Source: Spiroplasma phoeniceum (lineage in GTDB: Bacteria > Bacillota_I > Bacilli_A > Mycoplasmatales > Mycoplasmataceae). Taken from it: 64,000 bases of DNA. Positions 8,673 to 53,225 of this stretch are shown piece by piece; position 1 is the first letter of the stretch, and each line of letters begins with the position of its first letter. The notes under the pieces were generated by a model that saw only the letters and a program-made list of their open reading frames with translations, did not search any database and was not told where the DNA came from. The stretch is taken from positions 372,001 to 436,000 of the forward strand of contig CP110830.1 of NCBI GenBank assembly GCA_026239495.1, in the 5' to 3' direction. The position numbers and the translations under genes are program-made.

Positions 8673-9742
8673 AGACTTCTTGCATAACCCATTAAAATAA
8701 TTTCAAATATTTGTAAAAAGGGGTTAATATAAAATTATAATTTTAATTAATTATGTCTTTTATTTAAAAATTTAATATTTTGCCACAACGAAAAATTATT
8801 TTATTATTCAAATTCGTTAATTTTAAATAAATCTTTTATGATAACTATAATAATTGTAAATTATAAATTGAAGCAATTAAATTAAATCTTAAACTAAATC
8901 GTTTCCTTCGATTACGATATTTTTCTGTAATAATTTTAAATTTTTTAAGAATAGCAAAAATATTTTCAATAATAATTCTTATTTTTGAAACTAGTCTATT
9001 ATGTTGTTTTTGTTCTTTATTTAAATGTTTTTTCTTAGTTTTCTTTGTGGGCATTATAACATTATTGTGAATTTTTTGTATTCCTTGATAACCACTATCA
9101 ACTATTAATTTGGTATTTTTTAAAATTGCGATTTTTGATTCTTTAAATAAAGCATAATCGTGTTTTTTACCAAGCGAAAAACTTGTTGCAATAATTTTTT
9201 TGGTTTCTTGTTCGATAATTACTTGTGTTTTAATAGTGTGTTTTTTCTTTTTACCAGAATAAGATTGTTTTTGTCTTTTTTTGGGCGTTGGATTGGGGTT
9301 TCGGTAAAATCAATAATAATAGTTTTATCATTAAAATAATCATTTATTAGTGCTTTTTTACCAGCAACTTGCTGAAAATCAGGGTGTTTAATTAAAATAT
9401 CTTCAATTCACTTGATATTGCGATAACAATTAGCTTCACTAATTCCGAAATTTTTTCCAAGATGAAAATAAGTTCGATATTCTCGTCAATACGATAAAGT
9501 CATCAATAATCGATTTTCTAGTGATAATTTATTAGCTTTACCACCTTTTTTAAATTTTTCTATTTCAGCTACTTGTAAAATATCTAACATTTTATTAAAA
9601 ATATCTTGTTTTATTCCTGTTAATCTTAATCATTCTTTATCATTAATATTTTTAAATTCATCAAATTTCATAATTTAATATCCTCATAAATTATATTTTA
9701 TAATAATATTTTAATAATAAAACCAGGTATCGCAAGAAGTCT
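8673..9742 (-). mobile_element. IS5-family element, subtype A
   Basis: A 1,070-bp copy with both inverted ends intact and AAT on both sides. The left flank is a lipoprotein gene and the right flank a phage capsid-like gene, so this copy also marks a rearrangement junction, or replaced the intervening DNA by recombination between two IS copies. Confidence 0.92.
8845..9671 (-). CDS. IS5-family transposase (two frames, -1 frameshift)
   Basis: The first frame runs from MKFDEFKNINDKEW to just past the first catalytic Asp. The second frame carries the rest. They overlap at a CCCAAAAAAAGAC site suited to -1 slippage. In this copy the residue after the first catalytic Asp is altered (DFT instead of DAT). 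Otherwise no stop is seen. Confidence 0.75.
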
Positions 9743-10409
9743 AATATGTTGTTTCTTCAACAGTTTTCATTGCTCCACTTGTTGCAATTACGCTATTTAT
9801 TTGGTCGTTTACTCCAAGTTGTAACTGTAATTTATTACGAATTCCACGAATAAAATCAGCCGAACCTAATACAACTGTTTCTGATGGGGTAAAGCCATTT
9901 TCATATATTTTATCCATAATTTCATCATGTATTTGTAAAGCATTAGTATCATCTGCTTTTTGTCCTTGAATAGTTGTAACTGTTCCTTTATTAATAATTT
10001 CTAAAATTTTATTGCGTTTATAAGCAACTTCAGTATCAATTGCTTGCTCAATATCATCAGCCCAAAGATTAGGATTAAAATCACTTTCTACGGGGTCTAA
10101 TTTACGAGCAAAAGTTAAAATTGTATCTAATTCAACAATTCCATCTTCAAATTCCACTGTTGAATATTTTAGTAGGTTATCATCAGTATTAAATACTTGA
10201 CCGTTTGCTCCCAAACCTTCATTATATTTAATATTTTTCTTTCTTTTATATGTTAAACCAAACTTATTGGCTTCTTTTCAAGAAAATAGTGCTTCTCAAC
10301 TAAATTTTTGTTGATAAGTTTGTAAATATCATTGTTCAAATGTTTCTCGGTCTCTTTGTGTTGCTTGATCAGCAATATCTCCAAAAATTATTTTTTGGTT
10401 TTGTGCCAT
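9743..10409 (-). pseudogene. Phage capsid-like protein (P1), 3'-truncated
   Basis: Starts MAQNQKIIFGDIADQATQRD behind GGAAG. Residues about 70 onward read GLGANGQVFNTDDNLLKYST and continue to VEETTY, where IS5-A cuts the gene. The copies at 17165 and 43019 show that the whole protein is 408 residues. I call it capsid-like from its size, its position just after a scaffold-like coiled-coil gene, and its sequence style; this is inference, not a recognised match. In-frame TGA codons (W) occur in QWYLQTYQQKFSW. The last 185 or so residues are missing. Confidence 0.6.
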
Positions 10410-10426
10410 AATTTACTTCCTTCTTT

Positions 10427-10885
10427 CTATTTATTAAATACATTGTCTGTATCTAAAATATTGTTTTCTTTGTTTTCTACCTTTGGTACGCCGCCAGTAT
10501 TAACTGTTTGTAGCTTAATTAATTCATCATAAACACTTTGCAATTGTGCTTTAAGGATTTCAATATCATCGCTAATATCATAAGAATTTAATAAAACATT
10601 TTTAAATTATTCATTATCAGTTAAAGAATCAATAAAGTCAATTACTTCAATTTGTTTTAATTGAATTGTTTGTTGTTCAATTTGTGAAGTTAATTCAGTA
10701 TTTTTTGTTGGTAGTTCGTTGATTTGTTGATTATTATTTTCTAAATTACTTGCATTAAATTCTTCAACTTCAGCAGTATTTTCTAAAATAATTTCAGCAG
10801 TTTTAATATCTAAACTACCATCTTCATTTTTAATAGGTTCATTATTTTCATCAATAAGAACATATTTTACATTTTTTAATGCCAT
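10427..10885 (-). pseudogene. Scaffold-like coiled-coil protein (P1), nonsense
   Basis: Starts MALKNVKYVLIDENNEPIKN, is acidic, and has a central coiled coil (INELPTKNTELTSQIEQQTI). It ends at the position equivalent to the intact P2 copy (18409-18867). TAA at 10607-10609 replaces GAA of DNEEF in the P2 copy. It lies 17 bp upstream of the capsid-like gene, the usual place of a phage scaffolding gene. Confidence 0.65.
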
Positions 10886-10897
10886 TGTTTTTTCATC

Positions 10898-11296
10898 CTA
10901 TTTTTTAATATTTGTATTTGTTCTTTTTCTAATCGCTTTTTGTATAATTTCAAAACTATCTACTATAAAAGATAAAAAATAGCGTTTAGTTTTTATATTT
11001 AACTGATTAAATACTGAGCCTTTAATTTTTATCTCATCATCTTTTTTTAATTTTAAAAACTCAGTTAAAATAGATGGGTTATATATTGATAATGTTGAAT
11101 AATTTAATCCGTCTCATTGACATTTAGCCGAACAAGCATCAACTTCAACACCCCCAGCAACCAGTGCCTTAATTTTAGTTTTAATCGGATTTTCATGTAA
11201 TCTAACAGTTAATTCTAACTTATTAATTTTTTTATTTTTTATTTTAGGTTTATTAGTTATTGATTTTTTAGGTAAATTACTTTTTCTTTGTGCCAT
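10898..11296 (-). CDS. Phage-module small protein, possible OB-fold
   Basis: 132 residues, starting MAQRKSNLPKKSI behind AAGGAG. A basic, Lys/Asn-rich N-terminal 30 residues is followed by a conserved core KLELTVRLHENPIKTKI, VDACSAKCQ, then DDEIKIKGSVFNQ and KRYFLSFIVDSFEII. The alternating hydrophobic pattern of the last part resembles the strands of single-stranded-DNA-binding OB folds. That would fit its place next to a RuvC-like nuclease, but it is inference only. This copy is intact. It overlaps the end of the nuclease gene by 20 bp, implying coupled translation. Related copies: 18879-19280 (nonsense), 45807-47282 (IS-split), 61337-61741 (intact). Confidence 0.6.
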
Positions 11297-11771
11297 TTTT
11301 GTCAACTCCTTTTGCTAAAAAATACTGTAAATGTTTTCAAGCATCGTGTTCGTGCTCTGACATTTTAATACTTCCTTTATAAATATAATTTTTCTTAATG
11401 ACTGGTGATTGTAAAATATATTTTAAATTAAATAGATATTTGCATAAAACTTTTAAACCACCAATAAATTTAGGAGTAGATAATGGATTTTTTATTTTTA
11501 AACCTTTATGAAGTTGATAATCTTCAATTATTACAATAAATTTATTTAAATAAGAACAAATTTTATTTTTAAACTCATTTAATATTAAATACATATTATT
11601 TATTGCTTCATCTTCATTTTTAGAATTAAAAGTAATATTATTAATTATTTTCTTTTGCAAAACATTATAAATAATAATACCAGTTTGTCCAATTCCAGCA
11701 GGGTCAATTGCAATAATATATTTTAATTTATTTGTTTTATTTTTTGTCAATTTGTAATATTTTTCATCCAT
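11277..11771 (-). CDS. RuvC-like nuclease of phage module (P1)
   Basis: 164 residues. It begins MDEKYYKLTKNKTNKLKYII and continues AIDPAGIGQTGIIIYN, an RNase H-fold start with the first acidic residue in IDPAG. A second acidic motif, VIIEDYQLHKG, follows near residue 80; this spacing is typical of RuvC/Holliday-junction-resolvase-like proteins. A likely role is branch resolution during phage DNA replication (inference from motifs). It overlaps the previous gene by 35 bp and the next by 20 bp. This is the only complete copy: P2 and P3 have one extra A in the A-run after the first ten codons, and P4 is truncated. Confidence 0.65.
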
Positions 11772-12006
11772 CCGAAGCTAAATCTAAAATATCGTTAATT
11801 TTGTAATGTTGCATATAAGAAGCAATAACATTTCACTTGTCTTTAAATAAATTTAAGTACATTTTGGCTGATTCTAAACACTGCAAATCATAATGATTTT
11901 TATGATGTGAAATACGACAATTAATAGGCTGACAATTAACTCAATCAAATAATGTTGTTATTTCATTCCAATTTTTATTAATATATTTACTTTTATATTC
12001 TGTCAT
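11737..12006 (-). CDS. Small phage-module protein (MTEYK/MQEYK family)
   Basis: 89 residues behind GGAG: MTEYKSKYINKNWNEITTLF, then INCRISHHKNHYDLQCLESA, ending LASDGWKILQIDKK. The HHKNH segment and two cysteines suggest possible metal binding, but I do not recognise a family. Homologues starting MQEYK lie at 19707-19991 (nonsense) and 47709-47993 (intact). Its end overlaps the RuvC-like start, so the two are probably translated together. Confidence 0.6.
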
Positions 12007-13338: not shown

Positions 13339-13689
13339 AGGATATTTTGATATAATTTACCCCCATACGGAAATAAACAAAAAAAGTTTACCCAGTTATT
13401 AATTACGCTTCATCCATCCCTAGAAAACTTTATATAAAGAAAATAACCTTTTGGAGTTCCAACCCTTTTGTTTTTTTAGTGTCCGATATTGTTTTTTTCG
13501 GTTTAACAGCACTCTTTTTATGAAAACAAGCTAAAAAACACATGCTCTGACATTTCACAAGTGATTAATCTTGCCGAGAATTAAAGAAATAAATAGGATA
13601 ATAATTCCAATCGCTTTCACACTTTCTTTAATGCTTCTTGCCATAGATGAGTTATTCATTTTTAAGCATCAAAATATTAAGTTTTAGAT
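13339..13689 (-). pseudogene. Small basic membrane protein of phage module (P1)
   Basis: The start at 13659 gives MNNSSMARSIKESVKAIGII, a hydrophobic helix (ILFISLILG), then INHLWNVRACVF and a stop. A second frame stays open after this (VFIKRVLLNRKKQYRTLKKQ), so a membrane protein with a very basic tail was probably encoded. The counterparts at 20461 (P2), 48466 (P3) and 23742 (P5) show different indels. About 120 bp between this and the hairpin holds nothing else I can see. Confidence 0.4.
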
Positions 13690-13849
13690 TGCATTATTCA
13701 TCAGATAGTACCTTTATTAAAAATGATATTATTAGTTTTTAAACCGAAAAAATATAATAAATTACAGAAAGGAAATTATAAAAATTAACTAATTTGTTGG
13801 GAAAATATATTAATTTTAATTTTAAAGATACTATCTGATGAATAATGCA
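13690..13849. repeat. Phage-module long inverted repeat (P1)
   Basis: TGCATTATTCATCAGATAGT begins at 13690 and its reverse complement ends at 13849; the arms match over about 27 bp around a 105-bp centre. The same structure occurs at 20494-20634, 23569-23707 (inverted module) and 48501-48641, and half of it at 33876. Flanks are the same in each case, so it belongs to the phage rather than moving alone. Confidence 0.75.
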
Positions 13850-13857
13850 AATAAAAA

Positions 13858-13880
13858 AATCGCTCTAATAAGCGATTACT
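13858..13880. terminator. Hairpin terminator at phage-module edge
   Basis: AATCGCT and AGCGATT arms with a 6-base loop and an A-run on one side. Repeated in the opposite orientation at 33848-33872. Confidence 0.65.
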
Positions 13881-13952
13881 TTAATTTATATTTAATTACT
13901 TTATTTATAATTTTTACAAAATCTAAGCTTTTTTCCGACTACCAAATTTGAT

Positions 13953-16254: not shown

Positions 16255-16607
16255 AATTAAAATATCTTCAATTCACTTGATATTGCGATAACAATTAGCT
16301 TCACTAATTCCGAAATTTTTTCCAAGATGAAAATAAGTTCGATATTCTCGTCAATACGATAAAGTCATCAATAATCGATTTTCTAGTGATAATTTATTAG
16401 CTTTGCCGCCTTTTTTAAATTTTTCTATTTCAGCTACTTGTAAAATATTTAACATTTTATTAAAAATATCTTGTTTTATTCCTGTTAATCTTAATCATTC
16501 TTTATCATTAATATTTTTAAATTCATCAAATTTCATAATTTAATATCCTCATAAATTATATTTTATAATAATATTTTAATAATAAAACCAGGTATCGCAA
16601 GAAGTCT

Positions 16608-17130
16608 AATAAAGTTTCATTATTAGCCTGCTTTGTAAAATCAAATATTAATTTATCAGATAAAATCTTTTTACCTGTAACTTGTCTTCCAACATCTTCT
16701 AAGTTATTAGCACTTATTACACCTAATTTTTCAAGTAATTTAGTTTCTTTTGCTAATTTTAAAATTCTAGTTGTTCGTTCTGCGCGCGTTAATTTTCCAA
16801 TATCATCAATTGCTGGTAACAAATTTAAGGCGGTACTTTTTGCTGTTACTTCTGATGTTAATTTATCGTATATTTGATTTACAGCAAAATCGGTTGATGC
16901 TTCTACTCCAAACGAGATAAATGCTGCGGTGAAATTAGATAAACCAGCTCCAAGGCCAACAGCCGAAGCAATACCACCAGTTAAAACTGATAAAACAAGG
17001 GCTAAAACTTGAATTCCTAAAAATTATAATAACTGTAAACCAAAACTTTTTTCTTGTTGTTGGATTGACAATCTAGTTGGATTTTTTTAACAGCATAAAT
17101 AAGGGTTGTTTTAGATGTTCCAATTGGCAT
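16608..17130 (-). pseudogene. Phage membrane protein (P2), broken and truncated
   Basis: Starts MPIGTSKTTLIYAVKK. One A is missing from an A-run compared with the P3 copy, and TAA at 17034-17036 replaces GAA. The middle part reads GIASAVGLGAGLSNFTAAFI, a hydrophobic glycine-rich segment absent from P3, and the gene runs to FTKQANNETLL, where IS5-A cuts it. Its place just after the capsid-like gene suggests a minor virion or membrane protein; no function is recognised. Confidence 0.55.
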
Positions 17131-17164
17131 ATCTATCAAACGAAAAAGTACTATTTTTTAGTAC

Positions 17165-18391
17165 TTAAGAATTTTTAATTTTAACATCAATCGGATTTGT
17201 TTGACCAGTAGCATTGTTTTTGCCTTCAATTTGAACTTCAACAGTTTTATCATTTGTAATATTAATTGGTCAATCTTCTCCTTTACTTTCAATAAAGTAA
17301 TCAAAATCACTTTCAGTTAAAGAACTATCTACGGCTTTTACCGCTTGTAAAACAACATCTTTAAATTGTGGTTTTAGCTGTTCTGCTGTCGCCTTTGTTT
17401 GGTCCACAACATGAATAGTTGGTTTATTTAATTTATTAATTTTACTAATATCAATTTTTGTAACAATATGTTTAATAATTCCCTTGGGTTCAACTACTGC
17501 TCCACCTAAATATAAAACTCTTTCCATAATTAAAGTATTACCCATTCCAGTACCTAACGCAGCAGCACCAACCCTTAATAAAGTATGGTCTTTTTTGCGT
17601 AAAATAATAGGGTCATATTTTTTGCTAAATTTAAAGGCAATTGCATTAACACCTTCTGGCAATAAACTAATTGTTCCTTCTGAACCATTTTTATTAATAA
17701 TTGGTAATTTTTTAGGAACCATATAATATGTTGTTCCTTCAACAGTTTTCATTGCTCCACTTGTTGCAATTACGCTATTTATTTGGTCGTTTGCTCCAAG
17801 TTGTAACTGTAATTTATTACGAATTCCACGAATAAAATCAGCTGAATCCAAGACAACTGTTTCTGATGGGGTAAAACCATTTTCATATATTTTATCCATA
17901 ATTTCATCATGTATTTGTAAAACATTTGTATCATTTGCTTTTTGTCCTTGAATAGCTGTAACCATTCCTTTATTAATAATTTCTAAAATTTTATTGCGTT
18001 TATAAGCAACCTCAGTATCCATTGCTTGCTCAATATCAGCAGCCCAAAGATTAGGATTAAAATCAATTTCTACAGGGTCTAATTTAAGAGCAAAAGTTAA
18101 AATGGTATCTAATTCAACAATTCCATCTTCAAATTGCACTGTTGAATATTTTAGCAGGTTATTATCAGTATTAAATACTTGACCGTTCGCTCCCAAACCT
18201 TCATTGTATTTAATATTTTTCTTTCTTTTATATTTTAAACCAAACTTATTCGCTTATTTTCACGCAAATAAAGCCTCTCAACTAAATTTTTGTTGATAGG
18301 TTTGTAAATATCATTGTTCAAATGTTTCTTGGTCTCGTTTTGTTGCTTGATTAGCAATATCTCCGAAAATTATTTGTGGGTTTTGTGCCAT
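17165..18391 (-). pseudogene. Phage capsid-like protein (P2), nonsense mutation
   Basis: Full length (408 codons) except for TAA at 18254-18256 (codon 46), where the other two copies have GAA. After the stop the frame is open to the end: GLGANGQVFNTDNNLLKYST; NLWAADIEQAMDTEVAYKRN; NGFTPSETVVLDSADFIRGI; GAAALGTGMGNTLIMERVLY; and a C-terminal beta-rich tail DKTVEVQIEGKNNATGQTNP. The tail looks like a small Ig-like or spiralin-like domain. It gives the clearest view of the whole protein. Confidence 0.65.
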
Positions 18392-18408
18392 AATTTATTT
18401 CCTTCTTT

Positions 18409-18867
18409 CTATTTATTAAATACATTGTCTGTATCTAAAATATTGTTTTCTTTGTTTTCTACTTTTGGTACACCACCAGTGTTAACTGTTTGTACCTTAA
18501 TTAATTCATAATAAGCGCTTTGCAATTGTGTTTTAATGATTTCAATATCATCAGTAATATCATAAGACTTTGATAAAACATTTTTAAATTCTTCATTATC
18601 AGTTAAAGAATTAATAAAGTCAATTAATTCAATTTGTTTTAATTGAATGTTTTGTTGTTCAATTTGTGAAGTTAATTCAGTATTTTTTGTTTGTAGTTCG
18701 TTGATTTGCTGATTACTATTTTCTAAATTACTTGGATTAAATTCTTCAACTTCAGAAGTATTTTCTAAAATAATTTCTGCTGTTTTAATATCAAAAATAC
18801 CATCTTCATTTTTAATAGTTTCATTATTTTCATCAATAAGAACATATTTTACATTTTTTACTGCCAT
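18409..18867 (-). CDS. Scaffold-like coiled-coil protein (P2), intact
   Basis: 152 residues, strongly acidic and without Cys or Trp. The N-terminal part VKYVLIDENNETIKNEDGIF is beta-rich; the centre is a coiled coil (QQINELQTKNTELTSQIEQQ) and the C-terminal part is helical (ITDDIEIIKTQLQSAYYELI). Composition, size and position immediately upstream of the capsid-like gene match phage scaffolding proteins, which is how I assign it. The ribosome site is GGAGGAAAAACA. This is the only undamaged copy; P1 has a stop, P3 an IS5 and P4 is cut. Confidence 0.6.
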   Translation of the reverse strand: MAVKNVKYVLIDENNETIKNEDGIFDIKTAEIILENTSEVEEFNPSNLENSNQQINELQTKNTELTSQIEQQNIQLKQIELIDFINSLTDNEEFKNVLSKSYDITDDIEIIKTQLQSAYYELIKVQTVNTGGVPKVENKENNILDTDNVFNK

Positions 18868-18878
18868 TGTTTTTCCTC

Positions 18879-19280
18879 CTATTTTTTAATATTTGTATTT
18901 GTTCTTGTTCTAATCGCTTTTTGGATAATTTAAAAACTATCGACTCGAAAAGATAAAAAATAGCGTTTAGATTTTATATTTAACTGATTAAATATTGAGT
19001 TTTTAACTTTTATCTCATCACCTTTTATTAATTTCAAAAACTCAGTTAAAACAGATGAGTTATATATTGATAATGTTGAGTAATTTAATCCTTCTCCCTG
19101 ACATTTAGCTGAACAAGCATCAACTTCAACACCACCAGCAACCAGTGCATTAATTTTAGTTTTAATCGGATTTTCATGTAATCTAACAGTTAATTCTAAC
19201 TTATTAACTCTTTTATTTTTTGTTTTTGTCTTATTAGTAGTGATTGTTTTTTTAGATAAATTACTTTTTGTTTTTACCAT
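18879..19280 (-). pseudogene. Possible OB-fold protein (P2), C-terminal nonsense
   Basis: Starts MVKTKSNLSKKTITTNKTKT and keeps the whole core, ending at TAA (18930-18932) after YFLSFRVDSF, where P1 and P4 read GAA. The missing tail is about 17 basic residues, so partial function is conceivable. Confidence 0.55.
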
Positions 19281-19756
19281 TATTTATCACTTCCTTTTTT
19301 AAAAAATATTGCAAATGTTTTCAAGCATCTAATTCATGCTCTGTAATTTTAATATTTCCTTTATAAACATAATTTTTCTTAACAACTGGCGATTGTAAAA
19401 CATAATTTAAATTAAATAGATATTTGCATAAAACTTTTAAACCACCAATGAATTTAGGGGTAGATAATGGATTTTTTATTTTTAAACCTTTGTGAAGTTG
19501 ATAATCTTCAATTATTACAATAACTTTATTTAAATAATAACAAATTTTATTTTTAAATTGATTTAATATTAAATACATATTATTTATTGCTTCTTCTTCA
19601 TTTTTGGAATTAAAAGTAATATTATTAATTATTTTCTTTTGCAAAACATTATAGATAATAATACCGGTTTGTCCAATTCCGGCAGGGTCAATTGCAATAA
19701 TATATTTTAATTTATTAGTTTTATTTTTTTCTCAATTTGTAATATCTTTCAACCAT
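19261..19756 (-). pseudogene. RuvC-like nuclease (P2), frameshifted
   Basis: The start codon frame (MVERYYKLRKK) stops after the A-run because it has seven A where P1 has six. Beyond that the RuvC frame is open from KNKTNKLKYIIAIDPAGIGQ to the end. The acidic motifs IDPAG and VIIEDYQLHKG are present. Confidence 0.55.
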
Positions 19757-19991
19757 CTTTATCCAAATCTAAAATATCATTAATTTTGTAATGTTGCATA
19801 TATGAATTAATAACATCTCATTTATATTCAAATAAATTTAAATACATTTTTGCTCATTATAAACATTGTAAATCATAATGATTTTTATGGTGCGAAATAC
19901 GACAATCAACGGACTTACAATTAACTCAATCAAATGATGTTGTTATTTCATTTCAAGTTTTATTGATATATTTACTTTTATATTCTTGCAT
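19707..19991 (-). pseudogene. MQEYK-family small protein (P2), nonsense
   Basis: 94 codons, starting MQEYKSKYINKTWNEIT, with TAA at 19857-19859 where P1 and P3 have GAA in QCLE. In P2 this gene directly follows the GC-rich hairpin, the three upstream genes of P1 being absent. Confidence 0.55.
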
Positions 19992-20107
19992 AATATTTTT
20001 TTCCTTTCTTTTTATTTATATTTTTTAAATAAACAGAAAAATTCTTTGTTGGTTAATATTTTGATATTTAGTAAATAATGTATTGTATTTTAGTATTTAT
20101 TTATTTC

Positions 20108-20142
20108 GCCGCCCGCTTCACCTCGGGAGTGAGTGGGGGCGG
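20108..20142. promoter_or_regulatory. GC-rich hairpin of phage module (P2)
   Basis: GCCGCCC pairs with GGGCGGT across the centre. See 13303-13338. Confidence 0.6.
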
Positions 20143-20248
20143 TAAGGTTATTTAGACAGAGTTTATCCCCCTACGGAAGTAAAAAAAGTTTACCCAGTTA
20201 TTAATTACGCTTCATCCATCCCTAGACAACTTTATATAAAGAAAATAA

Positions 20249-20461
20249 CCTTTTGGAGCTCCAACCCTCTTGTTTTTTTAGTGTCCGATATTGTTTTTTC
20301 AGTTTAACAACACTCTTTTTATGAAAACAAGCCAAAAAACACATGCTCTGACATTTCGCAAGTGATTAATTTTGCCGAGAATTAAAAAAATAAATAGGAG
20401 TAGTAAATCCAATCGCTTTCACACTTTCTTTAAGGCTTCGTGCCATAGATGAGTTATCCAT
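20249..20461 (-). pseudogene. Small basic membrane protein of phage module (P2)
   Basis: Starts MDNSSMARSLKESVKAIGF, then shifts frame in the hydrophobic helix compared with the P5 copy. A Lys/Arg-rich frame continues after it. About 100 bp between the hairpin and this gene holds no other feature. Confidence 0.35.
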
Positions 20462-20493
20462 CTTTAAGCATCAAAATATTAAGTTTTAAATGT

Positions 20494-20634
20494 TGCATTA
20501 TTCATCGGATAATACCTTTATTTGAAAGGAAATTTATAAAAAAATATCGTTTATTTTGTGTAGGGAAAACATAATAACATCTGTTTTTATGATAAAAGTT
20601 CTAAATTTAAAGATGCTATCCGATGAATAATGCA
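20494..20634. repeat. Phage-module long inverted repeat (P2)
   Basis: Arms TGCATTATTCATCGGATAA and TATCCGATGAATAATGCA around about 90 bp. Confidence 0.75.
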
Positions 20635-24231: not shown

Positions 24232-25301
24232 AGACTTCTTGCGATACCTGGTTTTATTATTAAAATATTATTATAAAATATAATTTATGAGGATATTAAA
24301 TTATGAAATTTGATGAATTTAAAAATATTAATGATAAAGAATGATTAAGATTAACAGGAATAAAACAAGATATTTTTAATAAAATGTTAAATATTTTACA
24401 AGTAGCTGAAATAGAAAAATTTAAAAAAGGCGGCAAAGCTAATAAATTATCACTAGAAAATCGATTATTGATGACTTTATCGTATTGACGAGAATATCGA
24501 ACTTATTTTCATCTTGTAAAAAATTTCGGAATTAGTGAAGCTAATTGTTATCGCAATATCAAGTGAATTGAAGATATTTTAATTAAACACCCTGATTTTC
24601 AGCAAGTTGCTGGTAAAAAAGTACTAATAAACGATTATTTTAATGATAAAACTATTATTATTGATGCTACCGAAACCCCAATCCAACGCCCAAAAAAAGA
24701 CAAAAACAATCTTATTCTGGTAAAAAGAAAAAACACACTATTAAAACACAAGTAATTATCGAACAAGAAACCAAAAAAATTATTGCAACAAGTTTTTCGC
24801 TTGGAAAAAAACATGATTATGCTTTATTTAAAGAATCAAAAATCGCAATTTTAAAAAATACCAAATTAATAGTTGATAGTGGTTATCAAGGAATACAAAA
24901 AATTCATAATAATGTTATAATGCCCACAAAGAAAACTAAGAAAAAACATTTAAATAAAGAACAAAAACAACATAATAGACTAGTTTCAAAAATAAGAATT
25001 ATTATTGAAAATATTTTTGCTATTCTTAAAAAATTTAAAATTATTACAGAAAAATATAGAAATCGTAGAAAACGATTTAGTTTAAGATTTAATTTAATTG
25101 CTTCAATTTATAATTTACAATTATTATAGTTATCATAAAAGATTTATTTAAAATTAACAAATTTGAATAATAAAATAATTTTTCGTTGTGACAAAATATT
25201 AAATTTTTAAATAAAAGACATAATTAATTAAAATTATAATTTTATATTAACCCCTTTTTACAAATATTTGAAATTATTTTAATGGGTTATGCAAGAAGTC
25301 T
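24232..25301 (+). mobile_element. IS5-family element, subtype A
   Basis: 1,070 bp with both ends intact and AAT duplicated, inserted in the IS30-type transposase gene. Confidence 0.93.
24303..25129 (+). CDS. IS5-family transposase (two frames, -1 frameshift)
   Basis: Frame 1 starts MKFDEFKNINDKEWLRLTGI behind GAGGATA, includes the helix-turn-helix part (NKLSLENRLLMTLSYWREYR) and first catalytic Asp (IIIDATETPIQRP), and stops soon after. Frame 2, one base back, carries SYSGKKKKHTIKTQVIIEQE, LIVDSGYQGIQ (second Asp) and RIIIENIFAILKKF (Glu). The overlap has the slippery run CCAAAAAAAG at 24690-24699. A -1 shift joins them into 275 residues, typical of IS5-family transposases with a D-D-E domain. 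No nonsense change is seen, but two Gly/Ala to Val changes distinguish this copy. Confidence 0.8.
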
Positions 25302-25837
25302 AATATACAAGATTATAATCCATATCAAGCACAAAAAGATTGTAAACAAAAACGTAAAAAATGCATTAAAAAACTACATAAATTTACAAAAGAGCAGTTA
25401 GATTTTATTAAAATAAGATTTAATAAATACCACGATACACCTGAACAATTAATTTATCGTTATTTCTTGGAGTTTGGTGTTAAATTTCCTGCTTGTGTTA
25501 AAACATTGTATAAATGAATTCGCTTAGGTGAATTTGGATTAAAAAAAGAAAATTTAATCCATCGTGGTAAAAAATACAAAACAAAAGGAAAACCTGATAA
25601 TCGTGGTAAATTAACTAACTTTAAATCAATTTGAGATATTGAAAATAAATTTTCTAATGTTGGATGATTTGAAATGGATACTGTTGTAGGAAAAGACCAT
25701 CAATCTAGTAATTTAGTTTTAGTAGAACAATCAAGTAAAAATTATTTTGTAATGAAATTAAAAAATAATACTGCTAATGAAGTTTTAGAAAAATTTAAAG
25801 ATATTGTTAAAAATAATAATTTAATTAGGAAAATTAA

Positions 25838-25988
25838 GGTAGTAAGAAAAGGGTTGAGGTTTTGGTATAAAAAGTATTTTTTTAATGTTATTGATGAATT
25901 TAAAACACTAATAAATCAGGATTTTTAAAAATTTATCCAATTATTTTATTTATATTTTTTATAAAACCTCAACTTTTGTAATGCTATC
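25838..25988. mobile_element. 151-bp MITE, copy 1
   Basis: Bounded by AAAATTAA direct repeats (25830-25837 and 25989-25996). The ends GGTAGTAAGAAAAGG and, inverted, GATAGCATTACAAAAG share an imperfect inverted repeat extending through GTTGAGGTTTT. It codes for no transposase. Identical, base for base as far as I can read, to 53032-53182. Confidence 0.85.
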
Positions 25989-26276
25989 AAAATTAAAGGA
26001 ATAATAACTGATAGAGGAAAATAATTTAGTAAATGAAAAGAAATGGAAATATTTGCTGAAACACAAATTTATTTTTGTGACCCCGGTAAACCACAACAAA
26101 AACCATTAATTGAGTATATGAACGATTAATTTAGATATTTACTTTCTAAGGGAACTGATTTTAATAATATTAGTCAAAAAATGATAGACTGAGTAGTTAA
26201 TGTTATAAATGATAAACTCCGACCATGTTTAAATTGACTAAGTGCAGAGACAATGTTTTTACAAAATTTTAAATAA

Positions 26277-31051: not shown

Positions 31052-32121
31052 AGACTTCTTGCATAACCCATTAAAATAATTTCAAATATTTGTAAAAAGG
31101 GGTTAATATAAAATTATAATTTTAATTAATTATGTCCTTTATTTAAAAATTTAATATTTTGCCACAACGAAAAATTATTTTATTATTCAAATTAGTTAAT
31201 TTTAAATAAATTTTTTATGATAACTATAATAATTGTAAATTATAAATTGAAGCAATTAAATTAAATCTTAAACTAAATCGTTTTCTACGATTTCTATATT
31301 TTTCTGTAATAATTTTAAATTTTTTAAGAATAGCAAAAATATTTTCAATAATAATTCTTATTTTTGAAACTAGTCTATTATGTTGTTTTTGTTCTTTATT
31401 TAAATGTTTTTTCTTAGTTTTCTTTGTGGGCATTATAACATTATTGTGAATTTTTTGTATTCCTTGATAACCACTATCAACTATTAATTTGGTATTTTTT
31501 AAAATTGCGATTTTTGATTCTTTAAATAAAGCATAATCGTGTTTTTTACCAAGTGAAAAACTTGTTGCAATAATTTTTTTGGTTTCTTGTTCGATAATTA
31601 CTTGTGTTTTAATAGTGTGTTTTTTCTTTTTACCAGAATAAGATTGTTTTTGTCTTTTTTTGGGCGTTGGATTGGGGTTTCGGTAGCATCAATAATAATA
31701 GTTTTATCATTAAAATAATCATTTATTAGTGCTTTTTTACCAGCAACTTGCTGAAAATCAGGGTGTTTAATTAAAATATCTTCAATTCACTTGATATTGC
31801 GATAACAATTAGCTTCACTAATTCCGAAATTTTTTCCAAGATGAAAATAAGTTCGATATTCTCGTCAATACGATAAAGTCATCAATAATCGATTTTCTAG
31901 TGATAATTTATTAGCTTTGCCACCTTTTTTAAATTTTTCTATTTCAGCTACTTGTAAAATATCTAACATTTTATTAAAAATATCTTGTTTTATTCCTGTT
32001 AATCTTAATCATTCTTTATCATTAATATTTTTAAATTCATCAAATTTCATAATTTAATATCCTCATAAATTATATTTTATAATAATATTTTAATAATAAA
32101 ACCAGGTATCGCAAGAAGTCT
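31052..32121 (-). mobile_element. IS5-family element, subtype A, best-preserved copy
   Basis: 1,070 bp, both ends intact, ATT duplicated. Inserted in the IS3 transposase gene. Confidence 0.93.
31224..32050 (-). CDS. IS5-family transposase, reference copy (-1 frameshift)
   Basis: I see no stop or indel apart from the frame change at the seven-A run. Frame 1 (MKFDEFKNINDKEW to IIIDATETPIQRPKK) and frame 2 (QKQSYSGKKKKHTIK to SIYNLQLL) join by -1 slippage to 275 residues with the full D-D-E triad (IDAT, VDSGYQG, IIENIF). The start follows GAGGATATTAA. A TATAAAATATAAT stretch within the element's left end is a likely promoter. This or the copy at 35561-36387 would be the best candidate for an active source. 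Confidence 0.82.
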
Positions 32122-32210: not shown

Positions 32211-33280
32211 AGACTTCTTGCATAACCCATTAAAATAATTTCAAATATTTGTAAAAAGGGGTTAATATAAAATTATAATTTTAATTAATTATGTCTTTTA
32301 TTTAAAAATTTAATATTTTGCCACAACGAAAAATTATTTTATTATTCAAATTCGTTAATTTTAAATAAATCTTTTATGATAACTATAATAATTGTAAATT
32401 ATAAATTGAAGCAATTAAATTAAATCTTAAACTAAATCGTTTTCTTCGATTACGATATTTTTCTGTAATAATTTTAAATTTTTTAAGAATAGCAAAAATA
32501 TTTTCAATAATAATTCTTATTTTTGAAACTAGTCTATTATGTTGTTTTTGTTCTTTATTTAAATGTTTTTTCTTAGTTTTCTTTGTGGGCATTATAACAT
32601 TATTGTGAATTTTTTGTATTCCTTGATAACCACTATCAACTATTAATTTGGTATTTTTTAAAATTGCGATTTTTGATTCTTTAAATAAAGCATAATCATG
32701 TTTTTTTCCAAGCGAAAAACTTGTTGCAATAATTTTTTTGGTTTCTTGTTCGATAATTACTTGTGTTTTAATAGTGTGTTTTTTCTTTTTACCAGAATAA
32801 GATTGTTTTTGTCTTTTTTTGGGCGTTGGATTGGGGTTTCGGTAACATCAATAATAATAGTTTTATCATTAAAATAATCATTTATTAGTGCTTTTTTACC
32901 AGCAACTTGCTGAAAATCAGGGTGTTTAATTAAAATATCTTCAATTCACTTGATATTGCGATAACAATTAGCTTCACTAATTACGAAATTTTTTCCAAGA
33001 TGAAAATAAGTTCGATATTCTCGTCAATACGATAAAGTCATCAATAATCGATTTTCTAGTGATAATTTATTAGCTTTGCCACCTTTTTTAAATTTTTCTA
33101 TTTCAGCTACTTGTAAAATATCTAACATTTTATTAAAAATATCTTGTTTTATTCCTGTTAATCTTAATCATTCTTTATCATTAATATTTTTAAATTCATC
33201 AAATTTCATAATTTAATATCCTCATAAATTATATTTTATAATAATATTTTAATAATAAAACCAGGTGTCGCAAGAAGTCT
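32211..33280 (-). mobile_element. IS5-family element, subtype A
   Basis: 1,070 bp with AAT on both sides. The left flank is IS3; the right flank is the end of an IS5-B copy (33281-33412). It sits at the same IS3 position as the insertion at 40580. Confidence 0.92.
32383..33209 (-). CDS. IS5-family transposase (-1 frameshift)
   Basis: The two frames join at the seven-A site. Differs from the reference copy by DVT in place of DAT at the first catalytic motif and by a Gly to Val change in KNFGIS. No stop seen. Confidence 0.75.
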
Positions 33281-33704: not shown

Positions 33705-34027
33705 AATATTTATTTTCAGAATTATAAAAATAAGCACAACAAAAAATAAATTTTTACTAATCTTATACAAACAATAAATTTGGTAGTAAGAAAAAAGTTG
33801 AGGTTTTATAAAAAATATAAATAAAGTAATTAAATACAAATTAAAGTAATCGCTTATTAGAGCGATTTTTTTATTTGCATTATTCATCAGATAGTATTTT
33901 TAAAATTAAAAATTAACCTATTTTCTCCATCAATTAGTTAATTTTTATAATTTCCTTTCTGTGATTTATTATATTTTTTCGGTTTAACAAAAGTAAAAAC
34001 AAAATTATCATCTCTAAAAATAATGTT
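33705..34027. other. Phage-derived noncoding region
   Basis: Contains a MITE-like arm at 33782-33825 (GGTAGTAAG ... AAGTTGAGGTTTT), the AATCGCT/AGCGATT terminator at 33848-33872, and one arm of the long inverted repeat from 33876. It mirrors the region right of P1 (13850-13952). No gene seen. Confidence 0.6.
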
Positions 34028-35388: not shown

Positions 35389-36458
35389 AGACTTCTTGCA
35401 TAACCCATTAAAATAATTTCAAATATTTGTAAAAAGGGGTTAATATAAAATTATAATTTTAATTAATTATGTCTTTTATTTAAAAATTTAATATTTTGCC
35501 ACAACGAAAAATTATTTTATTATTCAAATTCGTTAATTTTAAATAAATCTTTTATGATAACTATAATAATTGTAAATTATAAATTGAAGCAATTAAATTA
35601 AATCTTAAACTAAATCGTTTTCTACGATTTCTATATTTTTCTGTAATAATTTTAAATTTTTTAAGAATAGCAAAAATATTTTCAATAATAATTCTTATTT
35701 TTGAAACTAGTCTATTATGTTGTTTTTGTTCTTTATTTAAATGTTTTTTCTTAGTTTTCTTTGTGGGCATTATAACATTATTGTGAATTTTTTGTATTCC
35801 TTGATAACCACTATCAACTATTAATTTGGTATTTTTTAAAATTGCGATTTTTGATTCTTTAAATAAAGCATAATCGTGTTTTTTACCAAGTGAAAAACTT
35901 GTTGCAATAATTTTTTTGGTTTCTTGTTCGATAATTACTTGTGTTTTAATAGTGTGTTTTTTCTTTTTACCAGAATAAGATTGTTTTTGTCTTTTTTTGG
36001 GCGTTGGATTGGGGTTTCGGTAACATCAATAATAATAGTTTTATCATTAAAATAATCATTTATTAGTGCTTTTTTACCAGCAACTTGCTGAAAATCAGGG
36101 TGTTTAATTAAAATATCTTCAATTCACTTGATATTGCGATAACAATTAGCTTCACTAATTCCGAAATTTTTTCCAAGATGAAAATAAGTTCGATATTCTC
36201 GTCAATACGATAAAGTCATCAATAATCGATTTTCTAGTGATAATTTATTAGCTTTGCCACCTTTTTTAAATTTTTCTATTTCAGCTACTTGTAAAATATC
36301 TAACATTTTATTAAAAATATCTTGTTTTATTCCTGTTAATCTTAATCATTCTTTATCATTAATATTTTTAAATTCATCAAATTTCATAATTTAATATCCT
36401 CATAAATTATATTTTATAATAATATTTTAATAATAAAACCAGGTATCGCAAGAAGTCT
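35389..36458 (-). mobile_element. IS5-family element, subtype A
   Basis: 1,070 bp with both ends intact and AAT on both sides. Confidence 0.93.
35561..36387 (-). CDS. IS5-family transposase (-1 frameshift)
   Basis: No stop or indel seen outside the seven-A frameshift site; DVT at the first catalytic motif. Otherwise as the copy at 31224-32050. Confidence 0.78.
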
Positions 36459-36967: not shown

Positions 36968-38038
36968 AGACTTCTTGCGATACCTGGTTTTATTATTAAA
37001 ATATTATTATAAAATATAATTTATGAGGATATTAAATTATGAAATTTGATGAATTTAAAAATATTAATGATAAAGAATGATTAAGATTAACAGGAATAAA
37101 ACAAGATATTTTTAATAAAATGTTAGATATTTTACAAGTAGCTGAAATAGAAAAATTTAAAAAAGGTGGCAAAGCTAATAAATTATCACTAGAAAATCGA
37201 TTATTGATGACTTTATCGTATTGACGAGAATATCGAACTTATTTTCATCTTGGAAAAAATTTCGGAATTAGTGAAGCTAATTGTTATCGCAATATCAAGT
37301 GAATTGAAGATATTTTAATTAAACACCCTGATTTTCAGCAAGTTGCTGGTAAAAAAGCACTAATAAATGATTATTTTAATGATAAAACTATTATTATTGA
37401 TGCTACCGAAACCCCAATCCAACGCCCAAAAAAAGACAAAAAACAATCTTATTCTGGTAAAAAGAAAAAACACACTATTAAAACACAAGTAATTATCGAA
37501 CAAGAAACCAAAAAAATTATTGCAACAAGTTTTTCACTTGGTAAAAAACACGATTATGCTTTATTTAAAGAATCAAAAATCGCAATTTTAAAAAATACCA
37601 AATTAATAGTTGATAGTGGTTATAAAGGAATACAAAAAATTCACAATAATGTTATAATGCCAACAAAGAAAACTAAGAAAAAACATTTAAATAAAGAACA
37701 AAAACAACATAATAGACTAGTTTCAAAAATAAGAATTATTATTGAAAATATTTTTGCTATTCTTAAAAAATTTAAAATTATTACAGAAAAATATATAAAT
37801 AGTAGAAAACGATTTAGTTTAAGATTTAATTTAATTGCTTCAATTTATAATTTACAATTATTATAGTTATCATAAAAGATTTATTTAAAATTAACAAATT
37901 TGAATAATAAAATAATTTTTCGTTGTGGCAAAATATTAAATTTTTAAATAAAAGACATAATTAATTAAAATTATAATTTTATATTAACCCCTTTTTACAA
38001 ATATTTGAAATTATTTTAATGGGTTATGCAAGAGGTCT
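36968..38038 (+). mobile_element. IS5-family element, subtype A, fused-frame copy
   Basis: 1,071 bp, one base longer than most because of an extra A next to the frameshift site. ATT lies on both sides; removing it restores the B sequence CATAATTAATTAAA. The right end is altered (GCAAGAGGTCT). Confidence 0.93.
37039..37866 (+). CDS. IS5-family transposase, single 275-residue frame
   Basis: Unlike the other copies, the sequence after RPKKDK has six A instead of five (GACAAAAAAC), so both halves read in one frame without slippage. This gives a complete D-D-E protein (IDATETPIQRP; LIVDSGYKGIQ; RIIIENIFAI). Three changes (Q to K in SGYQG, and R to I and R to S near the C-terminus) lie in otherwise invariant positions, so activity is uncertain. 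The fused protein would not be under frameshift control. Confidence 0.85.
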
Positions 38039-40579: not shown

Positions 40580-41649
40580 AGACTTCTTGCGATACCTGGT
40601 TTTATTATTAAAATATTATTATAAAATATAATTTATGAGGATATTAAATTATGAAATTTGATGAATTTAAAAATATTAATGATAAAGAATGATTAAGATT
40701 AACAGGAATAAAACAAGATATTTTTAATAAAATGTTAAATATTTTACAAGTAGCTGAAATAGAAAAATTTAAAAAAGGTGGCAAAGCTAATAAATTATCA
40801 CTAGAAAATCGATTATTGATGACTTTATCGTATTGACGAGAATATCGAACTTATTTTCATCTTGGAAAAAATTTCGGAATTAGTGAAGCTAATTGTTATC
40901 GCAATATCAAGTGAATTGAAGATATTTTAATTAAACACCCTGATTTTCAGCAAGTTGCTGGTAAAAAAGCACTAATAAATGATTATTTTAATGATAAAAC
41001 TATTATTATTGATGATACCGAAACCCCAATCCAACGCCCAAAAAAAGACAAAAACAATCTTATTCTGGTAAAAATAAAAAACACACTATTAAAACACAAG
41101 TAATTATCGAACAAGAAACCAAAAAAAATATTGCAACAAGTTTTTCACTTGGTAAAAAACACGATTATGCTTTATTTAAAGAATCAAAAATCGCAATTTT
41201 AAAAAATACCAAATTAATAGTTGATAGTGGTTATCAAGGAATACAAAAAATTCACAATAATGTTATAATGCCCACAAAGAAAACTAAGAAAAAACATTTA
41301 AATAAAGAACAAAAACAACATAATAGACTAGTTTCAAAAATAAGAATTATTATTGAAAATATTTTTGCTATTCTTAAAAAATTTAAAATTATTACAGAAA
41401 AATATAGAAATCGAAGAAAACGATTTAGTTTAAGATTTAATTTAATTGCTTCAATTTATAATTTACAATTATTATAGTTATCATAAAAGATTTATTTAAA
41501 ATTAACGAATTTGAATAATAAAATAATTTTTCGTTGTGGCAAAATATTAAATTTTTAAATAAAAGACATAATTAATTAAAATTATAATTTTATATTAACC
41601 CCTTTTTACAAATATTTGAAATTATTTTAATGGGTTATGCAAGAAGTCT
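40580..41649 (+). mobile_element. IS5-family element, subtype A
   Basis: 1,070 bp, intact ends, AAT on both sides. The right flank is another IS5-A copy in the opposite orientation. Confidence 0.93.
40651..41477 (+). CDS. IS5-family transposase (-1 frameshift)
   Basis: Standard two-frame arrangement. Substitutions: DDT for DAT at the first catalytic motif, K to N after SGK, and I to N in TKKIIAT. No stop seen. Confidence 0.75.
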
Positions 41650-45569: not shown

Positions 45570-45921
45570 ATTGAATGTTTTGTTGTTCAATTTGTGAAGT
45601 TAATTCAGTATTTTTTGTTTGTAGTTCGTTGATTTGCTGATTACTATTTTCTAAATTACTTGCATTAAATTCTTCAACTTCAGAAGTATTTTCTAAAATA
45701 ATTTCTGCTGTTTTAATATCAAAAATACCATCTTTATTTTTAATAGGTTCATCATTTTCATCAATAAGAACATATTTTACATTTTTTACTGCCATTGTTT
45801 TTCCTCCTATTTTTTAATATTTGTATTTGTTCTTGTTCTAATCGCTTTTTGGATAATTTCAAAACTATCGACTATAAAAGATAAAAAATAGCGTTTAGAT
45901 TTTATATTTAACTGATTAAAT

Positions 45922-46992
45922 AGACTTCTTGCATAACCCATTAAAATAATTTCAAATATTTGTAAAAAAGGGTTAATATAAAACTATAATTTTAATTAAT
46001 TATGTCTTTTATTTAAAAATTTAATATTTTGCCACAACGAAAAATTATTTTATTATTCAAATTTGTTAATTTTAAATAAATCTTTTATGATAACTATAAT
46101 AATTGTAAATTATAAATTGAAGCAATTAAATTAAATCTTAAACTAAATCGTTTCCTTCGATTACGATATTTTTCTGTAATAATTTTAAATTTTTTAAGAA
46201 TAGCAAAAATATTTTCAATAATAATTCTTATTTTTGAAACTAGTCTATTATGTTGTTTTTGTTCTTTATTTAAATGTTTTTTCTTAGTTTTCTTTGTGGG
46301 CATTATAACATTATTGTGAATTTTTTGTATTCCTTGATAACCACTATCAACTATTAATTTGGTATTTTTTAAAATTACGATTTTTGATTCTTTAAATAAA
46401 GCATAATCGTGTTTTTTACCAAGTGAAAAACTTGTTGCAATAATTTTTTTGGTTTCTTGTTCGATAATTACTTTTGTTTTAATAGTGTGTTTTTTTCTTT
46501 TTACCAGAATAAGATTGTTTTTGTCTTTTTTTGGGCGTTGGATTGGGGTTTCGGTAGCATCAATAATAATAGTTTTATAATTAAAATAATCATTTATTAG
46601 TGCTTTTTTACCAGCAACTTGCTGAAAATCAGGGTGTTTAATTAAAATATCTTCAATTCACTTGATATTGCGATAACAATTAGCTTCACTAATTCCGAAA
46701 TTTTTTCCAAGATGAAAATAAGTTCTATATTCTCGTCAATACGATAAAGTCATCAATAATCGATTTTCTAGTGATAATTTATTAGCTTTGCCACCTTTTT
46801 TAAATTTTTCTATTTCAGCTACTTGTAAAATATCTAACATTTTATTAAAAATATCTTGTTTTATTCCTGTTAATCTTAATTATTCTTTATCATTAATATT
46901 TTTAAATTCATCAAATTTCATAATTTAATATCCTCATAAATTATATTTTATAATAATATTTTAATAATAAAACCAGGTATCGCAAGAAGTCT
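45922..46992 (-). mobile_element. IS5-family element, subtype A
   Basis: 1,071 bp. The AAT duplication is proven by comparison with P2 near 18990. Confidence 0.95.
46094..46921 (-). pseudogene. IS5-family transposase, stop and extra base
   Basis: TAA replaces TGA (Trp) in NDKEWLR near the N-terminus, and one extra T in a T-run near 46493 shifts the second frame. Confidence 0.8.
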
Positions 46993-47262
46993 AATATTGA
47001 GCCTTTAACTTTTATCTCATTACCTTTTATTAATTTCAAAAACTCAGTTAAAACAGACGAGTTATATATTGATAATGTTGAGTAATTTAATCCTTCTCAC
47101 TGACATTTAGCTGAACAAGCATCAACTTCAACACCACCAGCAACCAGTGCCTTAATTTTAGTTTTAATCTGATTTTCATGTAATCTAACAGTTAATTCTA
47201 ACTTATTAACTCTTTTATTTTTTGTTTTTGTCTTATTAGTAGTGACTGTTGTTTTAGATAAA

Positions 47263-47758
47263 TTACTTTTTGTTTTTACCATTATTTATCACTTCCTTTT
47301 TTAAAAAATATTGCAAATGTTTTCAAGCATCTAATTCATGCTCTGTCATTTTAACAGTTCCTTTATAAACATAATTTTTCTTAACAACTGGCGATTGTAA
47401 AACATAATTTAAATTAAATAGATATTTGCATAAAACTTTTAAACCACCAATGAATTTAGGGGTAGATAATGGATTTTTTATTTTTAAACCTTTGTGAAGT
47501 TTATAATATTCAATTATTACAATAACTTTATTTAAATAATAACAAATTTTATTTTTAAATTGATTTAATATTAAATACACATTATTTATTGCTTCTTCTT
47601 CATTTTTGGAATTAAAAGTAATATTATTAATTATTTTCTTTTGCAAAACATTATAGATAATAATGTCAGTTTGTCCAATTGCAGCATGGTCAATTGCAAT
47701 AATATATTTTAATTTATTTGTTTTATTTTTTTCTCAATTTGTAATATCTTTCAACCAT
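47263..47758 (-). pseudogene. RuvC-like nuclease (P3), frameshifted and mutated
   Basis: As P2, the A-run has seven A, breaking the frame after ten codons. In addition the first motif reads IDHAAIGQTD and the second IIEYYKLHKG, so active-site surroundings have changed. Decaying copy. Confidence 0.55.
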
Positions 47759-47993
47759 CTTTAGCCAAATCTAAAATATCATTAATTTTGTAATGTTGCA
47801 TATATGAATTAATAACATCTCATTTATCTTCAAATAAATTTAAATACATTTTTGCTCATTCTAAACATTGTAAATCATAATGATTTTTATGGTGCGAAAT
47901 ACGACAATCAACGGACTTACAATTAACTCAATCAAATGATGTTGTTATTTCATTTCAAGTTTTATTGATATATTTACTTTTATATTCTTGCAT
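47709..47993 (-). CDS. MQEYK-family small protein (P3)
   Basis: 94 residues, MQEYKSKYINKTWNEIT ... CRISHHKNHYDLQCLEWA ... GWKILQIEKKIKQIN, with no internal stop, unlike the P2 copy. The ribosome site AAAGGAAA is a little distant. It follows the GC-rich hairpin region directly. Function unknown. Confidence 0.5.
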
Positions 47994-48109
47994 AATATTT
48001 TTTTCCTTTCTTTTTATTTATATTTTTTAAATAAACAGAAAAATCCTTTGTTGGTTAATATTTTGATATTTAGTAAATAATGTATTGTATTTTAGTATTT
48101 ATTTATTTC

Positions 48110-48148
48110 GCCGCCCGCTTCACTTCGGGAGTTAGTGGGGGGGGGGTA
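48110..48148. promoter_or_regulatory. GC-rich hairpin of phage module (P3), altered
   Basis: GCCGCCCGC arm kept; the other arm has become a run of ten G, so pairing is partial. Confidence 0.55.
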
Positions 48149-48248
48149 AGGTTATTTAGACATAGTTTATATCCCCCTACGGAAGTAAAAAAAGTTTACC
48201 CAGTTATTAATTACGCTTCGTCCATCCCTAGACAACTTTATATAAAGA

Positions 48249-48466
48249 AAATAACTTTTTGGATTTCCAACCCTCTTGTTTTTTTAGTGTCCGATATTGT
48301 TTTTTCAGTTTAACAACAATCTTTTTATGAAAACAAGCCAAAAAACACATGCTCTGACATTTCGCAAGTGATTAATCTTGCCAAGAATTAAATAAATAAA
48401 TAGGAGAATAAATCCAGTCGCCTTAACACTTTATTTAAGACTTCGTGCCATAGATGGATTATCCAT
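48249..48466 (-). pseudogene. Small basic membrane protein of phage module (P3)
   Basis: The start at 48466 reads MDNPSMARSLK-like sequence, with frame changes in the hydrophobic part; the basic tail KKQYRTLKKQEGW is readable. Confidence 0.35.
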
Positions 48467-48500
48467 CTTTAAGCATCAAAAAATATTAAGTTTTAGGGGC

Positions 48501-48641
48501 TGTATTATTCATCGTATAATACCTTTATTTGAAAGGAAATTTATAAAAAAATATCGTTTATTTTGTGTAGGAAAAACATAATAACATCTGTTTTTATGAT
48601 AAAAGTTCTAAATTTAAAGATACTATCCGATGAATAATGCA
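48501..48641. repeat. Phage-module long inverted repeat (P3)
   Basis: TGTATTATTCATCG ... CGATGAATAATGCA, with one end mutated (C to T, and G to T after TCG). Confidence 0.72.
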
Positions 48642-52897: not shown

Positions 52898-53031
52898 GAT
52901 TTATCACTCCTTTTTATTTATATTATACCGCATTTATTATTTTTGTCAGGTTTTTTTTACTTATGACTTTTTCTTTTATGCTTTTTTATCATCTTTTTTA
53001 TCTCATTTTTTCTTTCTATCATCAGATATTT
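52898..53031. other. Cluster upstream region and gene tail
   Basis: Contains the ribosome site of the S1-type gene and the A/T-rich tail of the gene split by the MITE (reads DDRKKKWDKKDDKK on the minus strand). Confidence 0.4.
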
Positions 53032-53182
53032 GGTAGTAAGAAAAGGGTTGAGGTTTTGGTATAAAAAGTATTTTTTTAATGTTATTGATGAATTTAAAAC
53101 ACTAATAAATCAGGATTTTTAAAAATTTATCCAATTATTTTATTTATATTTTTTATAAAACCTCAACTTTTGTAATGCTATC
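53032..53182. mobile_element. 151-bp MITE, copy 2
   Basis: Identical to 25838-25988 and in the same orientation. Direct repeats CAGATATTT flank it (53023-53031 and 53183-53191). Confidence 0.85.
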
Positions 53183-53225
53183 CAGATATTTCCTTATGAT
53201 TAAATAGTTTTTTATTAATTCTTGT

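Follow-up and report, generated by a model that had tools for sequence, protein, structure and literature searches.

The 151-bp repeat that occurs twice in the stretch of Spiroplasma DNA analysed here appears to be a non-autonomous miniature transposon (MITE), both of whose ends are versions of the right end of a prophage, here called type B, and it is probably moved in trans by the transposase of that prophage; we put the probability of this reading at roughly 85%. We infer the acting enzyme from the structure of the repeat, its many copies, their target duplications, and the open candidate genes for a transposase. The window, 64,000 nucleotides in all, corresponds to G000:C1:372001-436000 in a single-contig genome of 2,179,570 bases, read with genetic code 4. 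Its two copies are identical, and the direct repeats that a preliminary description had named beside them are both present; the inverted ends given there agree at 19 of 26 bases. The features concerned are the following.

25830..25837, no strand: left target duplication of copy 1, AAAATTAA, 8 bp
25838..25988, + strand: MITE copy 1, 151 bp, within an IS30 transposase gene
25838..25863, + strand: left inverted end of copy 1, matching the S. citri prophage right end at 24/26 bases and the own-genome prophage right end at 22/26
25963..25988, - strand: right inverted end of copy 1, which with the inner 19 bp matches the prophage right end at 37-39/45 bases
25989..25996, no strand: right target duplication of copy 1, AAAATTAA, 8 bp
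53023..53031, no strand: left target duplication of copy 2, CAGATATTT, 9 bp
53032..53182, + strand: MITE copy 2, 151 bp, identical to copy 1, flanked by two minus-strand ORFs
53183..53191, no strand: right target duplication of copy 2, CAGATATTT, 9 bp

The search of the genome for the ends that had been proposed as a check did bring out more copies: patterns for the left and right ends, with up to three mismatches allowed, occur 62 and 60 times, respectively, and reversed control patterns do not occur. Among the best 40 of 849 candidates scored, at least 33 places are identical to the 151-bp sequence. We collected 63 complete copies of 147 to 154 bp from 65 loci, requiring ends with at most five mismatches from two consensus pairs, a set that is not a full census; 45 of them are 151 bp long, 33 of these being identical, and 9 are 148 bp long. 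An older subfamily of 147 to 149 bp comprises at least 16 near-complete copies with 91% or more identity to one member (that member included), together with one shorter match. Target duplications of at least 8 bp flank 53 of the 63 copies (47 of 8 bp, five of 9 bp, and one of 10 bp). Fewer than eight identical flanking bases are found at the other 10, eight of which belong to the 13 copies shorter than 151 bp; at 151 bp and above, 48 of 50 copies have a duplication of 8 bp or more. The first half of the duplications is A-rich and the second half T-richer, and their palindromic look is weak (1.91 of 4 complementary pairs versus 1.61 in shuffles, with a shuffle maximum of 2.09). Different copies have their eight flanking bases in common in 12 of 3906 pairings, and one pair (L014:182-329 and L047:518-665) has the same flanks and may therefore derive from a larger duplication. 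The repeat is thus short and non-coding, with inverted ends and target duplications, and many of its copies are identical with 8- to 9-bp duplications as the rule, so that its proposed designation as a MITE holds. No match to it was found among phage records. Elsewhere in the genome, a 75-bp piece (L046:453-527; G000:C1:1550252-1550326) consists of two left-type MITE ends facing each other. A sister genome (G012; L113-L132) carries its own family of 172- to 173-bp MITEs with related ends, several of them inserted in IS1595-like genes; both ends are present in 17 of 22 loci, two of which are the same place.

Empty sites are available as well. One MITE lies within a prophage of a second kind, type A, and is absent at that point from all seven sibling prophages, which show one base difference inside the duplicated octamer. 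With these seven siblings, and with different flanks at the two window copies, the repeat did not turn out to be part of a longer duplicated block, the outcome that had been named as a refutation. Given the duplications and the empty sites, the earlier argument that excision restores both reading frames becomes unnecessary, and it stands in part. The gene in which copy 1 lies does encode an IS30 transposase (NF033563, 89.7 bits; cut-off, 80), and joining its flanks with 159 bp taken out keeps a single frame across the site; the next stop follows about eight codons on, so the restoration is local and the gene is broken anyway. Copy 2 had been assigned to an unrelated gene. It sits between minus-strand ORFs at 52517-52897 and 53226-53705, neither of which has a match in Pfam or among phage records, and it interrupts no gene; removal of 160 bp leaves a sole long frame over the join, antisense to the first ORF, and nothing is restored. 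The window also contains near-identical IS5-type transposase frames at 24303-24755, 31598-32050, 32757-33209, 35935-36387, 40651-41103, 42039-42491, and 45046-45498, all seven of which stop at a shared A-rich position after 150 codons, and a 275-codon copy at 37039-37866. The 150-codon frames are either broken or read through via a programmed frameshift.

The preliminary description had also called for a full-length partner. This genome does contain one with ends of the same kind, which is no simple insertion sequence (IS) but a prophage of about 16 kb. Five complete type B prophages of 15.8 to 17.8 kb carry GGTAG-type inverted ends, each with a perfect 8-bp duplication.

1207457-1223300: complete type B prophage, own genome
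2153153-2170141: complete type B prophage, own genome
219039-236436: complete type B prophage, own genome
441635-459421: complete type B prophage, own genome
1251750-1267746: complete type B prophage, own genome

These are five of eight loci examined in the genome; of the other three, one has the left end only and two have no ends. A MITE is inserted in two of the five complete prophages. A 440-codon transposase ORF adjoins one end in four of the five, and in the fifth a late first ATG leaves 333 codons; a search with the transposase family found five places in the genome with a stop-free frame of 457 codons, one of them adjoining an unpaired left end. Type B remnants lie in the window itself.

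9742..12001, - strand: type B remnant, 91.5% to the complete prophage B1
13342..13943, - strand: second type B remnant right end, outer end at 13943
16607..20534, - strand: type B remnant with capsid-candidate gene, 91.4% to B1
33782..33990, + strand: type B remnant right end, its outermost 45 bp equal to the right end of the S. citri plasmid element
42563..44499, - strand: type B remnant with a broken capsid-candidate gene (two pieces)
45570..48541, - strand: type B remnant in two pieces, 45570-45922 and 46993-48541

The right part of the MITE matches three S. citri plasmids (two of which were inspected) and many places in relatives; in the sister genome G012 many of these belong to the 172- to 173-bp MITE family, and in the citri clade they form the right end of a long element. 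Two complete type B elements of 16,338 and 16,319 bp, 99.85% alike, lie on S. citri plasmids at different sites and with perfect 8-bp duplications; one record annotates the gene beside the left end as UPF0236 transposase-like, the other as hypothetical. A complete type B copy of 16,640 bp with a perfect 8-bp duplication occurs in S. poulsonii, as does a 469-bp copy with both prophage ends and an 8-bp duplication of its own (L143:18529-18997), best read as an internally deleted prophage derivative. In S. phoeniceum, a 13,376-bp element has both ends and a perfect 8-bp duplication. Among 12 prophage-type right ends in relatives (L135-L146), four have a left end and an identical 8-bp flank in the stretch examined, and of eight more loci, taken from S. 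poulsonii and S. phoeniceum, two have both ends and matching flanks.

That type B is a phage is supported by relationship at the sequence level. Its large terminase scores 22.5 bits, just below the cut-off of 23.2, and in a 408-residue protein, 98 residues near the end show 82% identity to the end of the type A capsid gene, itself identified through gene order against the annotation of its depositors. PHROGs, Pfam, and NCBIfam, each applied to 10 proteins, name almost no type B structural protein, the remaining type B products giving no informative family match, and the type B capsid candidate has no match among viral records. The type B transposase matches one viral contig, in which the left end adjoins the gene and other DNA lies beyond. 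Predicted models are poor, with a mean pLDDT of 35 for the capsid candidate and 51 for the transposase.

The link between MITE and prophage resides in the ends. The MITE right end agrees with the prophage right end at 37 of 45 bases in the own genome and at 39 of 45 in S. citri, compared with background maxima of 28-29/45 and 17-18/26 over about 126,000 window places from which the MITEs and two prophage ends had been excluded; its outermost 15 bp are unlike the prophage right end. The MITE left end, compared with the same prophage right end over 45 bases, scores 28 in the own genome and 31 in S. citri, which equals or barely exceeds the background (28 and 29), and its agreement is found in the outer 26 bases (22 and 24, as listed above). 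Compared with the left end of the prophage, the two MITE ends reach 17-18/26 and 24-26/45, within background (maxima, 19 and 29), and they have only the GGTAG-like and TGAGGTTTT blocks in common with it. The left and right ends of the type B prophage are themselves imperfect repeats, alike at 18 of 26 bases. On the basis of these scores, the MITE looks as if it were built from two prophage right ends, the left one preserved in its outer 26 bases alone.

The prophage transposase is, judging from its sequence, a DDE enzyme of the Mutator superfamily, from a sister family of IS256. Three transposase proteins match NF046004 with 226.5, 218.7, and 273.5 bits (cut-off, 162), and the type B transposases of the own genome score 225.9 bits. 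When 60 genomes of the family were searched, 24 matched, 20 of them above the cut-off, and none of 14 control genomes did. D169, D257, D283-x-x-H286, and E370 are invariant in five transposase sequences, which provides a DDE triad and, following its second D, the D-x-x-H signature; the catalytic residues, assigned through inspection, are putative. Since NF046004 and p-MULT 5 are both tied to the transposase of Mycoplasma integrative and conjugative elements (ICEs), we read the two names as one family, an equation that is our own. According to passages of a 2014 survey (PMC3942029), Mutator superfamily elements have inverted repeats of 18 to 39 bp with a terminal C, duplications of 8 or 9 bp, and circles with joined ends, and in p-MULT 5, whose members known to that survey were all Mycoplasma ICEs, the transposase gene adjoins one repeat. 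The partner prophage fits this description, with inverted repeats in the 18- to 39-bp range, a terminal C, and 8- to 9-bp duplications, its repeats being imperfect.

We envisage that the transposase, encoded beside the prophage left end and produced in the cell, would bind ends of about 26 bp (GGTAG...TGAGGTTTT) and either excise the MITE or copy it in trans. Insertion would then take place into AT-rich octamers through a staggered cut of 8 bp, sometimes 9 to 10 bp. The prophage itself probably moves via a circle, with a few base pairs of spacer linking its left and right ends.

A different source of the enzyme has to be considered, since duplications of 8 to 9 bp are made by IS256 and several other families, and this genome has an IS1595-like element flanked by 8-bp duplications. 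Conceivably, a simple IS of this sort moves the MITE and the likeness to the prophage is an AT-rich coincidence. We consider this improbable: IS256, named beforehand as the candidate mover, is not represented in the genome by any transposase detectable with PF00872 (0 matches), the IS1595-like element ends in CTTTAATTTTGTCGAAAACTCTTGAT and does not resemble the MITE, and the right ends of MITE and prophage are alike far above background. The families with 8- to 9-bp duplications that were checked are IS256, UPF0236/ISLre2 (UPF0236 genes lie at 14 places in the genome), and one IS1595-like element. Some apparent partners were discarded on inspection. A 1,224-bp stretch (G000:C1:1010220-1011443) is just a MITE with an IS5-type element inserted, the IS1595-like genes beside MITE ends in the sister genome (L099 and L112) are insertion targets, and the ends of the own-genome IS1595-like element differ from those of the MITE.

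The MITE might instead belong to the type A family, whose transposase is related (43% identity to that of type B, both above the NF046004 cut-off) and whose left end, located from the point where copies diverge, is seen with nine different flanks in the own genome. The type A ends, however, read GGTTGTATG... and GGTCGCATG... and lack the GGTAG and TGAGGTTTT blocks that the MITE and type B have in common, which makes this assignment very unlikely. Finally, a terminator-like palindrome in the MITE interior, read by eye, could suggest a selected functional unit, such as a terminator, a regulatory RNA, or a phage packaging site, spread by recombination; the duplications and the seven empty-site siblings are marks of transposition, and against them this idea is hardly credible.

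The proposed circle can be considered in the light of type A, which corresponds to the deposited Spiroplasma phage MaM-2019a (OL689226 and OL689227), a 19-kb phage of S. poulsonii NSRO in which the depositors annotated a portal, capsid, terminase, connector, and transposase. The MaM-2019a contigs derived from the DNA of phage-like particles, according to a passage in a paper that cites them (PMC12453411). Type A encodes a large terminase (41.7 bits; cut-off, 23.2), ERF, and SSB, and its chromosomal copies in S. poulsonii are 80 to 99%, mostly 89 to 99%, identical to the MaM-2019a records over nearly the whole length. Each of the two records is a linear map cut open close to the transposase gene, and in each the left end meets the right end with 5 bp between them (ATAAT and ATTTT). 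Similarly, two tandem type A elements in the S. poulsonii chromosome are joined by 5 bp (ATAAA; L168:828-922, G008:C1 about 1887361-1887385), as though integration had involved a circle or a dimer. A pattern for joined ends that covers types A and B found this tandem as its sole match in 14 genomes; for type B, the pattern search found no joined ends in those genomes. Joined ends are what a circle made by the transposase should show, and we read them in this way, but an identical sequence could also arise when tandem copies are assembled. One S. poulsonii type A element has both ends and a perfect 8-bp duplication; it contains a gap of 100 Ns with a repeated stretch alongside, so that its length of 23,655 bp is unreliable. 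Another copy (from 1868240) measures 19,128 bp between its ends, and a second element begins 5 bp further on, which is why the flanks of this copy disagree.

These prophages resemble the Mycoplasma ICEs (p-MULT 5; NF046004; CDS22) in having a transposase above the same curated cut-off, encoded beside one inverted repeat, and, as far as passages of the published descriptions go (PMC3942029 and PMC7466169), in their short duplications, scattered insertion sites, and, for type A, putative joined-end circles. They differ in gene content, a large terminase, ERF, and SSB being present in type A and a weak terminase match in type B. A Pfam scan of 10 proteins from each type found no conjugation or type IV secretion genes, and on the S. 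citri plasmids the annotated transfer genes are not part of the type B element. The spacing is different as well, with 5 bp between the joined prophage ends as opposed to 6 to 10 bp in the superfamily circles described in passages of the survey (PMC3942029). The IS256 family (p-MULT 1) is of the same superfamily and makes 8- to 9-bp duplications and circles, yet its PF00872 transposase was not found in the own genome. Phage Mu has a MuA-type transposase and generates 5-bp duplications. Mu and Mu-like phages also insert at many sites by means of a DDE transposase; the prophage transposase, in contrast, belongs to NF046004, the duplications are of 8 bp and not 5 bp, and the joined ends suggest a circle over replication from insertion to insertion. 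MaM-2019a shares its DNA with type A, including the transposase gene annotated by its depositors. For this phage we found no description of target duplications, of a transposition junction at the joined ends, or of derived MITEs in the literature searched, the original paper being outside it.

MITEs and transposable phages are known as kinds, and a type A phage with a transposase gene has been deposited. A transposon-like insertion of type A, a tie between this transposase family and phages, and phage-derived MITEs were not found described in the literature searched, which did not include the particle paper. These elements may represent a second kind of transposable phage in Spiroplasma, unrelated to Mu, a proposal whose chances we regard as evenly balanced: a small tailed-phage-like element with a Mutator-type transposase shared with ICEs would be replicated and packaged as a circle, integrate at numerous sites, duplicating 8 bp each time, and shed MITEs that multiply as its parasites. 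Prophage accumulation has been reported, in passages of PMC13375240, as a driver of the growth of some Spiroplasma genomes. If true, a second kind of transposable phage would help to explain such prophage-driven growth of large Spiroplasma genomes, the mechanism offered being transposition and not site-specific integration. The MITE burst would be linked to a phage, with a prophage supplying the enzyme of a miniature transposon, and phages would be added to a transposase family that, in the passages of the 2014 survey concerned, was known from Mycoplasma conjugative elements alone.

The IS1595-like element (L079:5210-5343) with its 8-bp duplications and CTTTAATTTTGTCGAAAACTCTTGAT ends is also present inside the own prophages at 2153153-2170141 and 441635-459421, and its transposase scores 74.4 bits (cut-off, 75). 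A piece of about 130 bp beside the type A transposase has nearly the same ends and looks like a MITE of the IS1595-like element itself. In addition, a 152-bp piece at L130:1194-1345 has two identical GGTAGTCGGAAAAAAGCTTAGGTTTT ends.
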